Origin: Pseudomonas asiatica
GTDB taxonomy: Bacteria; Pseudomonadota; Gammaproteobacteria; Pseudomonadales; Pseudomonadaceae
Assembly (NCBI RefSeq): GCF_040214835.1
Contig: NZ_CP157874.1
Location: forward strand, 5,668,501-5,732,500
Length of the DNA stretch: 64,000 bases
Direction of reading: 5' to 3'
Shown piece by piece: positions 10,749 to 35,645 of this stretch. A program made the translations under genes and the position numbers. The notes under the pieces are model-generated. The model made no database searches, was not told where the DNA came from, and saw nothing but the letters and a program-made list of their open reading frames with translations. Numbering within the stretch: position 1 is the first letter of the stretch; every line of letters starts with the position of its first letter.

Positions 10749-10797
10749 GATCCAGTCAGACTCCTTTGAACAGGCGGTTTTCATCGTGCAGATAAAG

Positions 10798-10824
10798 CAA
10801 AACCCCGCCCAAGGGCGGGGTTTG
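10798..10824 (-). terminator. Rho-independent terminator after the DUF1289 gene
   Basis: Perfect stem CCCCGCCC/GGGCGGGG with a short loop, followed on the minus strand by a T-rich run. It separates the cyaY-DUF1289 unit from rnk. Confidence 0.85.
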
Positions 10825-10894
10825 TGAAGGCTTTGGCGTCACCGACGCAGAACCCGACGTTACCACAGCCGGGTAAATACTCAAGCCCCTGCGA

Positions 10895-28368: not shown

Positions 28369-28995
28369 TCAACGGGCGCTCAGGGCCGCATAGCTGTTCA
28401 TCAGGTTGCGGTAGTTGGGAATGCGCTGCGACAGCAGGTTACCCAGCCCTTCGATGTCATTGCGCCAGTCGCGGTGCAGCTCACAGGCCACCGAGAACCA
28501 GTTCATCATCTGCGCACCCGCCTGGGTCATGCGCACCCAGGCCGCCTGCTGCACGGTTTCGTTGAAGGTGCCCGAAGCATCGGTCACCACGAACACTTCA
28601 AAACCTTCCGCCAGCGCCGACAGGGTCGGGAACGCCACGCACACATCGGTCACCACGCCAGCGATGATCAGCTGCTTGCGGCCAGTGGCCTTGATCGCCT
28701 TGACGAAGTCTTCGTTGTCCCAGGCGTTGATCTGGCCAGGGCGGGCAATGTACGGCGCATCCGGGAACATCTCTTTCAGCTCGGGCACCAGCGGGCCGTT
28801 CGGGCCTTGCTCGAAGCTGGTGGTGAGGATGGTCGGCAGGCCGAAGAACTTGGCCAGGTCGCCCAGGGCCAGCACGTTGTTCTTGAACTCGTTGGGCGAG
28901 AAGTCCTGCACCAGCGAAATCAGGCCGGTCTGGTGGTCGACCAGCAGCACCACGGCGTCGTCTTTGTTCAGGCGCTTGTAATCGGGTTGGCTCAT
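28369..28995 (-). CDS. YcaC-like isochorismatase-family hydrolase (paralogue 1)
   Basis: 208 residues of the cysteine-hydrolase (isochorismatase-like) superfamily, YcaC group. The catalytic Asp20 (LLVDHQ) and Cys119 (VVTDVCVAFP) are present, as is the ARPGQINAWDNEDF stretch. Substrate unknown even for E. coli YcaC. This copy is clearly more diverged than the two other copies in the window (35016 and 43511) and lacks their shared upstream palindrome. Neighbouring AraC and GlxA regulators may control it. Confidence 0.88.
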   Translation of the reverse strand: MSQPDYKRLNKDDAVVLLVDHQTGLISLVQDFSPNEFKNNVLALGDLAKFFGLPTILTTSFEQGPNGPLVPELKEMFPDAPYIARPGQINAWDNEDFVKAIKATGRKQLIIAGVVTDVCVAFPTLSALAEGFEVFVVTDASGTFNETVQQAAWVRMTQAGAQMMNWFSVACELHRDWRNDIEGLGNLLSQRIPNYRNLMNSYAALSAR

Positions 28996-32688: not shown

Positions 32689-32900
32689 ATAGGCGCCAGA
32701 AATCTATCGTCAGGCACCTGGAGGCCATTCTGCAACCTCCCGACGGTCACCTCCCTGCCATTACGCGGATACCAAAAAACCATCAAAAAATCGTCCGTCT
32801 CAGCAAGGTCCTACCTCCTAGCGAACCATTTCCTACGTTAATGCTGACCCTGACGAATTATCCTACGCACCGTGTCGACGCCCGTCTGATTGTCCGGGGA

Positions 32901-33061
32901 AAGCCTGCTCTCTAGGCTTGCCGGGTCGCTGTCGGTTCAGCGATCGGGTGTGGAAACCCGTCTCGGTTTGAGGTTCTGTCGTCAATGGCAGTTGTGCGCG
33001 GGAGGCCGTATGGCCTACCGGGTTGCCTCTCACCGGTTTTCCACCCCGCGTACAACTGCCA
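32901..33061 (+). other. Multi-hairpin structured element upstream of the DUF6124 gene
   Basis: A string of consecutive inverted repeats. AAGCCT/AGGCTT lies at 32901-32919, TCGCTG/CAGCGA at 32926-32943 and CGGGT/ACCCG at 32945-32960. A 17-bp stem then pairs 32986-33002 with 33045-33061 (one G-T pair). It encloses two further hairpins, AGGCC/GGCCT (33003-33016) and ACCGG/CCGGT (33017-33037), making a three-way junction. It ends 51 bp before the start codon at 33113. Could be a cis-regulatory RNA leader or a folded mobile DNA unit. Confidence 0.7.
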
Positions 33062-33112
33062 CCCTTCGCGTGGAAACGGATGGTTGCAGTACAACCTAGA
33101 GAGCTTACTGCA

Positions 33113-33406
33113 ATGAAAAAGATTGTCCCCAATCCACCTCTTCCCGACACCAAAGAGCGCGCTTTCAGCCGCTGCGATGCCGGCCATCCACCTTTGTTCA
33201 CAGTAAACCCGGGCGTCTCTGCCCACGACGCCCTGGTGCATATCGCCCAGTACCTGCGCGGCGCCTACGACTGTGGCTACAAAGCCCTGGAACACCTGGA
33301 TGAAACCGGCAAGAGCCTGTTCTGGAGCAACCTGAATGCAGTCGAAATGGCAGAAGGGTTGGTTGAGGCATTGTTGGATGGGATTGAGTCGCAGCCCATG
33401 AATTGA
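33113..33406 (+). CDS. DUF6124 family small protein
   Basis: 97 residues, Pseudomonas-restricted small soluble protein of the DUF6124 (former DUF3077-like) group. Recognisable parts are the MKKIVPNPP start, a central FTVNPGVSAHDALVHIAQYL helix and AVEMAEGLVEALLDG near the C-terminus. No catalytic motif. Function unknown. The structured element immediately upstream is its most striking context. Confidence 0.75.
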   Translation: MKKIVPNPPLPDTKERAFSRCDAGHPPLFTVNPGVSAHDALVHIAQYLRGAYDCGYKALEHLDETGKSLFWSNLNAVEMAEGLVEALLDGIESQPMN

Positions 33407-33483: not shown

Positions 33484-33531
33484 TGGACTGCCCCCAAGAA
33501 GTTGGACACCAATCCAACCCTTGGGGGATCT

Positions 33532-34047
33532 ATGGGTAAATACACAGAGCAGTTCAAGCTCACGGCTATCACCGCTTACCTAGAGGGCAGCCGGGGCTTT
33601 CGCAAGGTGGCACAACACTTTGGCATCGATTTCAGCCTGCTTCGGCGCTGGGTTGCTGGCTACCAAGTCGATGCCAGCCTCAGCCCTCGCTCGCATGGTC
33701 GCCGCTACACCGAGGAATTCAAGCGGCGGGTGCTCAAGTACATGCTTGAGCATCGCCTGTCCCTGCGCCAAACAGCGGCGCACTTTGACCTTGGACAGTC
33801 CTCACAGATAGGCATTTGGCTGCGGCAGCACTACAGTGGCAGTCCTGTAGCCACTCTCGCCAAACAAAGAAAATCAGCCGTGCCGAAGAAAATTAAGCCC
33901 ATCAAGCCGACAGACACCAATGACGCAGAGAAATCTCGTGAGCAGTTGTTGAGCGAGCTCGAGTATCTGCGCATGGAGAATGATGTCCTAAAGGAGTTAA
34001 AGGCTCTGCGAGAGGAGAAGGAGCGAACACGGACGAAAAAGCCCTGA
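33532..34047 (+). CDS. IS3-family transposase OrfA (helix-turn-helix)
   Basis: 171 residues. Two tandem HTH/helical repeats (YTEQFKLTAITAYLEGSRGF and YTEEFKRRVLKYMLEHRLSL) followed by a leucine-zipper-like segment (LLSELEYLRMENDVLKELKAL) used for dimerisation. The last codons lie in ACGAAAAAGCCCTGA, a likely slippage site where -1 frameshifting joins it to OrfB to give the OrfAB transposase. Confidence 0.92.
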   Translation: MGKYTEQFKLTAITAYLEGSRGFRKVAQHFGIDFSLLRRWVAGYQVDASLSPRSHGRRYTEEFKRRVLKYMLEHRLSLRQTAAHFDLGQSSQIGIWLRQHYSGSPVATLAKQRKSAVPKKIKPIKPTDTNDAEKSREQLLSELEYLRMENDVLKELKALREEKERTRTKKP

Positions 34048-34088
34048 TCGTCTGCAAATTCAGACATAAATATCCGCTGCCCGACCTC

Positions 34089-34883
34089 TTGCAGATGGTG
34101 GGGTTGGCACGCAGTACCTTTTATTACCAGGTCAAGTGCCAGCAAAAGCCGGACAGGCACGCCTCGCTCAAGGAGTTGGTGCAGCGTGTCTATCACGAGG
34201 AGAAAGGGCTGTATGGCTACCGCCGCATTGCCCTTGCCATCAGGAATCAGGGGACCTTGGTCAACAAGAAGGTCATTGAACGGTTGATGGCTGAGCTTGG
34301 TTTGCAGTCCGTTGTACGCCCGAAGAAGTATCGATCCTATCGCGGCATTGTCGGCAAGGTGGCAATGAATTTGCTGGAGCGTAATTTCGTCGCGCAACGC
34401 CCCAACCAGAAGTGGGTGACCGATGTCACTGAGTTCAAAGTGGCCCAACAAAAGCTCTACCTGTCGCCCGTGATGGACTTGTACAACGGTGAGATCATCG
34501 CCTATGAAACAGCTTGCCGGCCTACCTATGGCTTGGTCGGGAACATGCTGGAAAAGGCGCTCGATGGGTTGGGTGAAAAGCCCAAGCTAGTGATCCACTC
34601 AGACCAGGGATGGCATTACCAGCAGCCCCAATACCGCCATAAGCTCGCAGCGCACGGTGTGAAGCAGAGCATGTCTCGCAAGGGTAATTGTCTGGATAAT
34701 GCAGCGATGGAAAGCTTCTTCGGCACACTGAAGTCAGAGTTCTTCTACCTGAAGCGCTTTGAAAGCGTCGAACAGCTGAAGGCGGGCCTGGAGGAGTACA
34801 TCCATTACTACAACCATGACCGCATCAGGCTGAAACTCAATGGCCTGAGCCCTGTCAGCTACAGGACTCAGGCCACGGGCTAA
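34089..34883 (+). CDS. IS3-family transposase OrfB (DDE integrase)
   Basis: 264 residues from the first ATG, but the open frame reaches back to about 34035 and is read as a fusion after a -1 shift. The DDE triad is visible: Asp in VTDVTEF, Asp in HSDQGWHY, and Glu in NAAMESFFGTLKSE. An HTH_21 segment (HEEKGLYGYRRI) precedes it. No internal stops, so it is functional by appearance. Confidence 0.93.
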   Translation: MQMVGLARSTFYYQVKCQQKPDRHASLKELVQRVYHEEKGLYGYRRIALAIRNQGTLVNKKVIERLMAELGLQSVVRPKKYRSYRGIVGKVAMNLLERNFVAQRPNQKWVTDVTEFKVAQQKLYLSPVMDLYNGEIIAYETACRPTYGLVGNMLEKALDGLGEKPKLVIHSDQGWHYQQPQYRHKLAAHGVKQSMSRKGNCLDNAAMESFFGTLKSEFFYLKRFESVEQLKAGLEEYIHYYNHDRIRLKLNGLSPVSYRTQATG

Positions 34884-34911
34884 AACTGTCCAACTTTTCG
34901 GGGGCAGTCCA

Positions 34912-35015: not shown

Positions 35016-35645
35016 TTACTTACCCGCAGTCAGCGCGTTGTAGCTGGTAATCAGGTTGCGATAATCCGGAATGTGGTTGGAGCAGAGCGCCGCCAGCCCT
35101 TCGATGTCGTTGCGCCAGTCGCGGTGCAGCTCACAGGCCACGCCGAACCAGGTCATCATTTGCGCGCCTGCGCGGCTCATGCGGTCATGGGCAGCATCGC
35201 GGGTCATTTCGTTGAAGGTGCCGGAAGCATCAGTCACCACGAACACTTCGAACTCCTCTTCCAGGGCCGACAGCGCCGGGAACGCTACACAGACCTCAGT
35301 CACCACTCCGGCGATGATCAGCTGCTTCTTGCCCGTGGCCTTCACCGCCTTGACGAAGTCTTCGTTGTCCCAGGCGTTGATCTGGCCTGGGCGGGCGATG
35401 TAGGGGGCGTCCGGGAACAGGGCTTTCAGCTCTGGTACCAGCGGGCCGTTGGGGCCTTGTTCGAAGCTGGTGGTGAGAATGGTCGGCAGGTTGAAGAACT
35501 TGGCCAGGTCGGCCAAGGCCAGCACGTTGTTCTTGAACTTGTCCGGCTCGATGTCACGGACCAGGGACAGCAGGCCAGCCTGGTGGTCGACCAGCAGGAC
35601 AGCGGCGTCGTCTTTGTTCAGGCGGTTGTAGGTGAATTTGCTCAT
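35016..35645 (-). CDS. ycaC: YcaC-like isochorismatase-family hydrolase (paralogue 2)
   Basis: 209-residue cysteine hydrolase highly similar to E. coli YcaC (LLVDHQAGLLSLVRDIEPD), with catalytic Asp at about residue 20 and Cys at about 119 (VVTEVCVAFP). YcaC crystallises as an octamer; its substrate is unknown. Nearly identical to the gene at 43511 (about a dozen differences by eye), a recent duplication or gene conversion. It shares that gene's upstream palindrome. Divergent from a LysR gene. Confidence 0.9.
   Translation of the reverse strand: MSKFTYNRLNKDDAAVLLVDHQAGLLSLVRDIEPDKFKNNVLALADLAKFFNLPTILTTSFEQGPNGPLVPELKALFPDAPYIARPGQINAWDNEDFVKAVKATGKKQLIIAGVVTEVCVAFPALSALEEEFEVFVVTDASGTFNEMTRDAAHDRMSRAGAQMMTWFGVACELHRDWRNDIEGLAALCSNHIPDYRNLITSYNALTAGK

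Follow-up and report, generated by a model that had tools for sequence, protein, structure and literature searches.

The window, i.e. the whole stretch of 64,000 nt from Pseudomonas asiatica that was analysed (contig NZ_CP157874.1), carries between 28369 and 34883 genes for an isochorismatase, a DJ-1/AraC protein and a sodium/hydrogen exchanger with TrkA_N, as well as an insertion sequence (IS). A cluster of short hairpins lies in this neighborhood on the plus strand, in front of a gene for a 97-aa protein, and is thus surrounded by ordinary chromosomal genes and an IS rather than by phage or prophage genes. The IS3-like element of about 1.43 kb lies just behind the small gene (33484–34911; ORFs 33532–34047 and 34089–34883) and features inverted ends with TACC on both sides, as judged by eye. 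The region is flanked by two mutually similar isochorismatase-like genes: one at 28369–28995, assigned by Pfam, and one on the minus strand at 35016–35645, recognized by eye. Elsewhere in the window, an rnk_pseudo leader (RF01772, 81.8 bits) is found on the minus strand at 10791–10893.

The initial annotation had described five short hairpins around or within a 17-bp stem, and all of them are present. Three lie 5' of the stem (32901–32919, 32925–32944, and 32945–32960) and two are nested in it (33003–33016 and 33017–33037); the 17-nt arms (32986–33002 and 33045–33061) are 94% complementary, with a G–U wobble as the sole mismatch. The density of inverted repeats, likewise noted as far above chance, is reflected in the predicted fold: the plus strand of 32901–33061 folds with −82.5 kcal/mol compared with a shuffled mean of −59.1 (z −6.1, reached by 0 of 200 shuffles), and the minus strand folds more weakly (−66.8, z −4.3). 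A scan with covariance models (cmscan) assigns 32981–33066 (+) to the C4 antisense RNA RF01695 over its full length (76.3 bits compared with a cut-off of 45; E 3.9e-13 over the window) and 32912–32964 (+) to its companion c4-a1b1, RF03163 (50.3 bits compared with a cut-off of 46.7). The C4 part folded alone has a z of −6.4. These matches identify the cluster as a C4 antisense RNA, with the 17-bp stem as C4 helix P1 and the nested hairpins as P2 and P3, and the riboregulator that had been offered as one possible reading is borne out by both models.

The functional unit is longer than the hairpins from which it was recognized : it begins with an upstream element at 32855 and extends as far as the start codon. 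This shared element, GAATTATCCTAC (32855–32866, +), was found by genome-wide pattern matches and is a possible activator site. It is followed by a probable σ70 promoter at 32890–32918 (+), with the −35 box TTGTCC (32890–32895), a 17-nt spacer, and the −10 box TAGGCT (32913–32918), as placed by a consensus scoring that favors a 17-nt spacer. The first hairpin, which overlaps this −10 box, probably lies outside the RNA. The −10 box also falls on the conserved CTAG(T/G)CT of the 5' edge in RF03163, so that the Rfam model may here include promoter sequence rather than RNA. The c4-a1b1 region then consists of the two hairpins 32925–32944 and 32945–32960; the loop of the second carries an upstream junction-code site, GTGGAAA (32950–32956), and a weak upstream loop-code site of 5 bp, GAGGT, follows by complementarity at 32970–32974. 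Within C4, P2 is formed by 33003–33007 and 33012–33016, and P3 by 33017–33021 and 33033–33037. The P3 loop (33022–33032) would carry the code directed to the Shine–Dalgarno (SD) zone, and the junction TTTCCAC (33038–33044) a second code. By geometry, these two would correspond to the b' loop and a' of the C4 of phage P1, respectively, as mapped through the description in PMC5320573; in the passages of that paper available, the b' loop covers the ribosome-binding site and a' binds upstream of it. Behind C4 lie a downstream junction-code site, GTGGAAA (33070–33076), and a weak SD and loop-code site, GAGAG (33099–33103). The start codon of the presumed target gene (33113–33406, +) is the ATG at 33113, which confirms the 51-bp gap between hairpins and gene given in the initial annotation.

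The structure recurs in a family of related sequences. The family alignment holds 101 matches in 93 distinct rows—99 of 100 loci, L058 being without a match, plus two weak second hits—and was fitted to the structure; in it, 98.8% of the cells are paired, 24 of 27 pairs are changed on both sides, and each of five measures is reached by 0 of 500 shuffles. Sliding the partner column by one lowers the pairing to 31–35%. In a plain MAFFT alignment of the 27 copies of this genome alone, 94.8% of the cells are paired and 17 of 27 pairs are changed on both sides (0 of 500 shuffles); the count of additional pair types, though, is matched by 40 of the 500. The check for covariation that had been proposed thus revealed compensatory changes in all three helices, and the C4 structure is, as far as covariation can tell, under selection. 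The two weak second matches to the C4 model are found at L133 1272–1355 (+, 27.6 bits) and L114 701–787 (+, 26.9 bits), the latter being the reverse strand of a true C4.

The suspicion that the element belongs to a repeated Pseudomonas family proved correct. The genome, searched as one contig of 5.85 Mb, carries 27 C4 copies, all above cut-off (26 under stricter filters), and a C4 match is present in 138 of 149 sampled genomes of the genus, this one included (137 above cut-off). Copy numbers in this sample are lower bounds, scoring being capped at 27: as tallied from the genomes listed, at least 10 copies occur in 91 genomes and at least 20 in 55, and 33 genomes reach the cap. The median is 13. 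Two relatives searched singly carry 42 copies (39 above cut-off) and 43 copies (42 above cut-off). At the level of the order, C4 is found in 29 of 194 genomes and 17 of 96 genera; outside the genus, 1 to 6 copies are usual, and a single genome from the same family has 14. The 14 control genomes gave no C4 match. Some copies are closely spaced, perhaps because of tandem duplications: three about 850 nt apart on contig 1 of G005 (3628832–3630617) and others on contig 1 of G097 (2763744–2770104 and 1763300–1769882). The 1.5-kb flanks of the other copies feature no named phage structural family among the 25 of 41 Pfam families listed, nor among 22 PHROGs, most of which are nameless.

The modules of this genome share their upstream layout. 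The pattern GAANTAYCCTAC, which was drawn from the copies themselves, has 15 matches in the genome and none in a reversed control; in 14 of the 15, a C4 of the same strand follows 118–129 nt after the start of the match. The remaining one (L321) resembles, by eye, a copy of the promoter region of L022 without a C4. This apparent promoter copy at L321 1204–1260 lies upstream of a gene pair which we take to be RelE/HigB-like and HigA-like. With mismatches allowed, the element is found at 22 of the 27 copies, compared with 0.55 expected from shuffles, and a consensus scan favoring a 17-nt spacer places a −10 box 51–52 nt behind it in 12 copies (forward) and 58 nt behind it in 7 (reversed), i.e. 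in 19 of 27 in total. This geometry would suit an activator, for which the element is a candidate site; alternatively, the copies may share it through common descent. The element was also considered as a general motif of C4 modules and dismissed: at a match of 11/14, it occurs in 2 of 30 copies of the relative G005 and in 0 of 30 of G097. In these two genomes, the copies have a different common element about as far upstream, which is clearly recognizable in 19 of the 30 copies listed for G005 and in 11 of the 30 listed for G097.

The gene in front of which the element lies had been named DUF6124. By score alone the name does not hold, since the 97-aa protein matches DUF6124 (PF19619) with 20.7 bits (E 4e-4), below the cut-off of 27, and DUF3077 with 17.6 bits, below its cut-off of 21. 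Its relatives speak for the name: P0009 and P0012 (72% and 69% identity) carry PF19619, and NCBI calls P0009 a "DUF6124 family protein". Altogether, 46 relatives share 43–98% identity and belong, where the organism is named, to Pseudomonas, apart from two entries labelled "Pantoea". Structure prediction yields two long helices (mean pLDDT of 86 in the best model and 72–77 in the other four). A Foldseek search gave no match at E ≤ 0.001, a PDB sequence search only best values of E 0.14 and 0.38, PADLOC only a weak match to DpdH (E 0.016), and tblastn no match in 50,697 phage or 72,556 plasmid records. A paralogue of the protein (L018) matches phrog_36471, with no match in the phage records. Orthologue comparisons of the window protein yield dN/dS values of 0.08–0.23 in 8 of 10 cases—the two others were dropped because of a stop within the 291-nt frame, and L187 was left out—and, as judged by these values, the protein is under purifying selection.

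All 27 C4 copies of the genome precede an ORF that starts 42–58 nt behind them, truncated to 26–42 codons in four (L004, L006, L007, and L025). Among the 23 longer ones, 17 were scanned: at E 0.01, seven match DUF3077, four match DUF6124, and at least six match neither. The expected association with DUF6124 genes is hence present in a wider form, as one with DUF6124- and DUF3077-like genes, and is not exclusive to these. Many target proteins start like MKK(I/L)VPDPP. The best-scoring DUF6124 gene of the genome (L322 1630–1940; 31.5 bits) is the sole one of six genome matches above the Pfam cut-off, and no C4 was found beside it in the stretches searched (L058 and L322), including 4 kb fetched around it. 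In the genus set, an ORF of at least 55 aa starts 28–80 nt behind C4 in 62 of 90 cases and is missing in 28; by the same measure, it is found in 25 of 29 cases in G005 and 28 of 29 in G097. Some copies of the genus are instead followed by a gene for what is, by eye, a BRO-like protein of about 175 aa. In other genera, an ORF lies behind 20 of 27 C4, and several of these ORFs are antirepressor-like by eye.

The two C4 codes are complementary to the leader of the gene that follows. In all 27 copies, the junction after P3 pairs over 6–9 bp with a site 2–6 nt behind C4; among non-cognate pairs, a junction match of at least 6 bp within 0–8 nt is found in 134 of 702 (19%). The best run of the P3 loop (4–12 bp) overlaps positions −14 to −6 before the hand-chosen start codon in 26 of 27 copies, with at least 6 bp in 25—the exceptions being L003 (4 bp) and the window copy (5 bp)—compared with 255 (36%) and 161 (23%) of 702 non-cognate pairs, respectively. 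Further complements of the codes lie upstream, in or after the a1b1 hairpins. When partners were permuted, the loop–leader pairing was reached by 0 of 10,000 permutations in each of three sets: the 27 copies of this genome, 81 of the genus (90 less 9 identical ones; best-scoring listed matches and, hence, skewed to the Rfam consensus), and 26 of 27 from other genera. The junction–leader pairing was reached, by energy, in 53, 1, and 5 of 10,000 permutations in these sets and, by the run measure over the first 20 nt in the set of this genome only, in 0 of 10,000. By the loop alone, the cognate leader ranks first for 11 of 27, 19 of 81, and 7 of 26 C4 (median ranks 2, 4, and 2); by both arms, it is the single best for 9 of the 27 in this genome and ranks 19th for L026.

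The codes are shared to some extent, as the 27 copies feature 26 distinct loops and just 16 distinct junction 7-mers. Selection for orthogonal codes was considered and found unsupported, since non-cognate pairs are no weaker within than between genomes. The comparison covered the 27 copies of this genome and 30 from each of the two relatives (out of 42 and 43, respectively). With both arms together, a non-cognate C4 equals the target's own C4 in strength in 9.5% of pairs within compared with 10.2% between genomes; the values are 19.3% and 19.0% for the loop, and 34.2% and 34.8% for the junction. Hence, copies with a common code probably cross-talk, or each C4 works chiefly on the transcript from which it derives.

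The window copy combines a strong and a weak arm. Its junction pairs perfectly over 7 bp at both the upstream and the downstream site, and its P3 loop matches the SD zone by only 5 bp (CTCTC with GAGAG), tied with a match to CAACC at 33092–33096, off the SD. When both arms are scored, thirteen leaders of other copies do better with its C4 than its own leader, which takes place 14 among the 27; the SD itself is poor by eye. As judged by these predicted pairings, the copy is among the weakest of the 27, and because of the weak SD-directed arm, repression by the window C4 may be leaky.

The orthologous locus behind kefC allows for following the codes of a single module. Here, 80 loci were kept from 442; the best kefC matches, at 95–98% identity, place the organism in the P. 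putida group. In 15 of the 80, blastn and the covariance model agree on a C4 module behind kefC; several other loci end too soon. In one relative, a HigBA-like pair, recognized by eye, lies between kefC and the C4 module (L065 660–1236). Among the orthologues, L193 is without the usual start, and L187 appears frameshifted, since tblastn recovers it as two pieces that differ in frame. When the window is compared with P. inefficax (L183), the promoter region (111/115) and the ORF (282/294) prove nearly identical, whereas identity falls to 71/85 in C4, 26/46 in the leader, and 7/15 in the upstream loop site, at a synonymous divergence of 0.15. The leader is identical at 26/46 positions compared with both L183 and L185 (dS 0.15–0.16) and with L190 (dS 0.45), at 36/46 with L184 (dS 0.19), and at 35/46 with L188 (dS 0.51). 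A code change faster than neutral was therefore discarded as a general rule, only L183 and L185 clearly exceeding the synonymous divergence.

For comparison of the codes, 15 sequences (the window and 14 others; L193 and L065 left out) were sorted by hand into six classes. In five of these, the loop matches the SD site by 7–12 bp and the upstream site by 5–10 bp, with code pairs such as CTATCGGAG with TTCCGATAG, GAGAAGG with CCTTCTC, and TTAGAGG with CCTCTAA; the class of the window has the 5-bp match only. Loop, upstream, and SD sites thus change together, either via recombination of alleles or via stepwise co-evolution. In cross-pairing of these hand-drawn groups, the own allele is the best C4 for five of six SD alleles. 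Full orthogonality of the alleles was rejected, as the rows W, D, and E pair better with the SD of another allele.

In phage P1, c4 blocks ant, and C4 is freed by RNase P. Most likely, the chromosomal C4 module described here acts in a comparable way and blocks translation of the small protein encoded downstream. This reading builds on family membership, covarying stems, cognate pairing that exceeds non-cognate pairing, a recurrent promoter layout, and purifying selection; from these, we infer as follows where the transcript starts, how it is processed, how repression works, and what a1/b1 do. One promoter, perhaps aided by a regulator at the shared upstream element, would drive a transcript that runs through two short hairpins and C4 into the 97-aa ORF. 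RNase P, the enzyme at work in phage P1, would presumably free C4 from this precursor; conserved residues at the 5' foot of C4 and the 3' CCACC are compatible with such a release and say no more. The freed C4 would bind the leader of its own mRNA, with the 7-nt junction anchoring it directly behind C4 and the P3 loop covering the SD zone. The protein would then be made only if transcription outruns C4 or if C4 is blocked. The a1/b1 sites upstream duplicate the target within the transcript; they may titrate C4 or act as competitors in its folding.

That the module is a type I toxin–antitoxin-like addiction system, in which C4 would serve as RNA antitoxin to a toxic small protein, is unlikely. 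An antisense RNA beside a small ORF in many copies, some with truncated ORFs, would fit, as would the fact that c4 of phage P1 is followed by icd, which interferes with cell division. However, the 97-aa protein, with its two predicted long helices, features by eye no obvious membrane segment, in contrast to typical type I toxins; presumed target and antisense share one transcript; and the DUF6124 gene at L322 is without a C4 in the 4 kb fetched. It is quite improbable that the modules are decaying phage relics, which spread from prophages and persist without function. Such decay would account for the longer BRO- or antirepressor-like ORFs that, by eye, often follow C4 in other genera, the four truncated ORFs of this genome, the weak loop–SD pairing of the window copy, the promoter copy without a C4 at L321, and the defects of the kefC orthologues L193 and L187, but is at odds with covarying stems, cognate code pairing, dN/dS values of 0.08–0.23, and the recurrent upstream element.

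The two other readings offered at the outset are hardly tenable. A structured leader is correct only insofar as the antisense RNA sits in the 5' region of the presumed target transcript; a ligand-sensing one, riboswitch or attenuator, would explain the structured 5' region of the gene, yet the loops, expected to be conserved in a ligand pocket, are the most variable part and vary with the leader, and the C4 match extends over the full length, which makes this reading very improbable. A folded single-strand DNA mobile unit would agree with a family that is repeated, palindromic, and dispersed. This proposal is likewise very improbable: promoter, RNA, and ORF all lie on one strand, the plus strand folds better, the conserved pairings are one-stranded and connect the C4 loops, behind a probable promoter, with an upstream site and the downstream leader, the module lies behind kefC in 15 of 80 loci, and the cognate pairing to the SD zone would have no role in single-strand DNA.

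Beyond repression by the single module, a broader reading can be put forward as a speculation that is more doubtful than probable: Pseudomonas may have turned a phage immunity RNA into a chromosomal system of up to about 40 self-addressed switches per genome, with lineage-specific upstream elements and with codes that are exchanged or diversified under a heteroimmunity-like selection—for instance, against incoming elements with a matching C4—while the protein is conserved. The copy numbers, the position of the targets, and the coherent code differences at one locus are its observed components. Since every C4 of this genome has complements in the leader directly behind it, sequence alone is enough to predict a target, and the link gives a regulatory context to the small proteins with DUF3077, DUF6124, and other matches. 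In addition, the modules provide a natural series of antisense codes for testing the evolution of RNA–RNA specificity.

The RNA class and its structure are already known from the Rfam families RF01695 and RF03163, the former reported in Proteobacteria and their phages in the available part of PMC2864571. Among open-licence papers, as far as titles and passages go, none was found that links C4 to DUF6124 or DUF3077, or that treats DUF6124, and DUF3077 has only an unrelated mention. The RNA IsrK (RF01394) of the Salmonella prophage Gifsy-1 features hairpins like those of c4-a1b1; the window element scores just 19 bits with its model, compared with a cut-off of 50. The anrP gene of this system is an antirepressor gene. 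IsrK acts on the small orf45 and through it on anrP, according to the passages available of PMC12197685. In Acinetobacter baumannii, "Group 1" C4-like RNAs are abundant sRNAs with 21 similar members in one genome and a variable a' loop, and RNA-seq points to an RNase P-like processing; the account, in its available passages, names no target and makes no mention of DUF6124 or DUF3077 (PMC5320573), whereas for the modules described here the leader of the next gene is predicted as the target from sequence. A further close likeness is to the C4 of phages P1 and P7 (RF01695 and RF03163), which share with these modules the fold, the order a1b1–C4–target, and the two-part pairing to the leader that is predicted for the modules. 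Code differences between relatives, as seen in the modules, also underlie P1/P7 heteroimmunity in the available passages of PMC12197685. Unlike in P1 and P7, the next gene of the window module is DUF6124/DUF3077-like instead of icd/ant, and the modules lie among ordinary chromosomal genes, in dozens of copies per genome and with a shared upstream element specific to the lineage. Compared with these systems, a large chromosomal set of C4 in front of small genes, many of them DUF3077/DUF6124-like, appears to be new.
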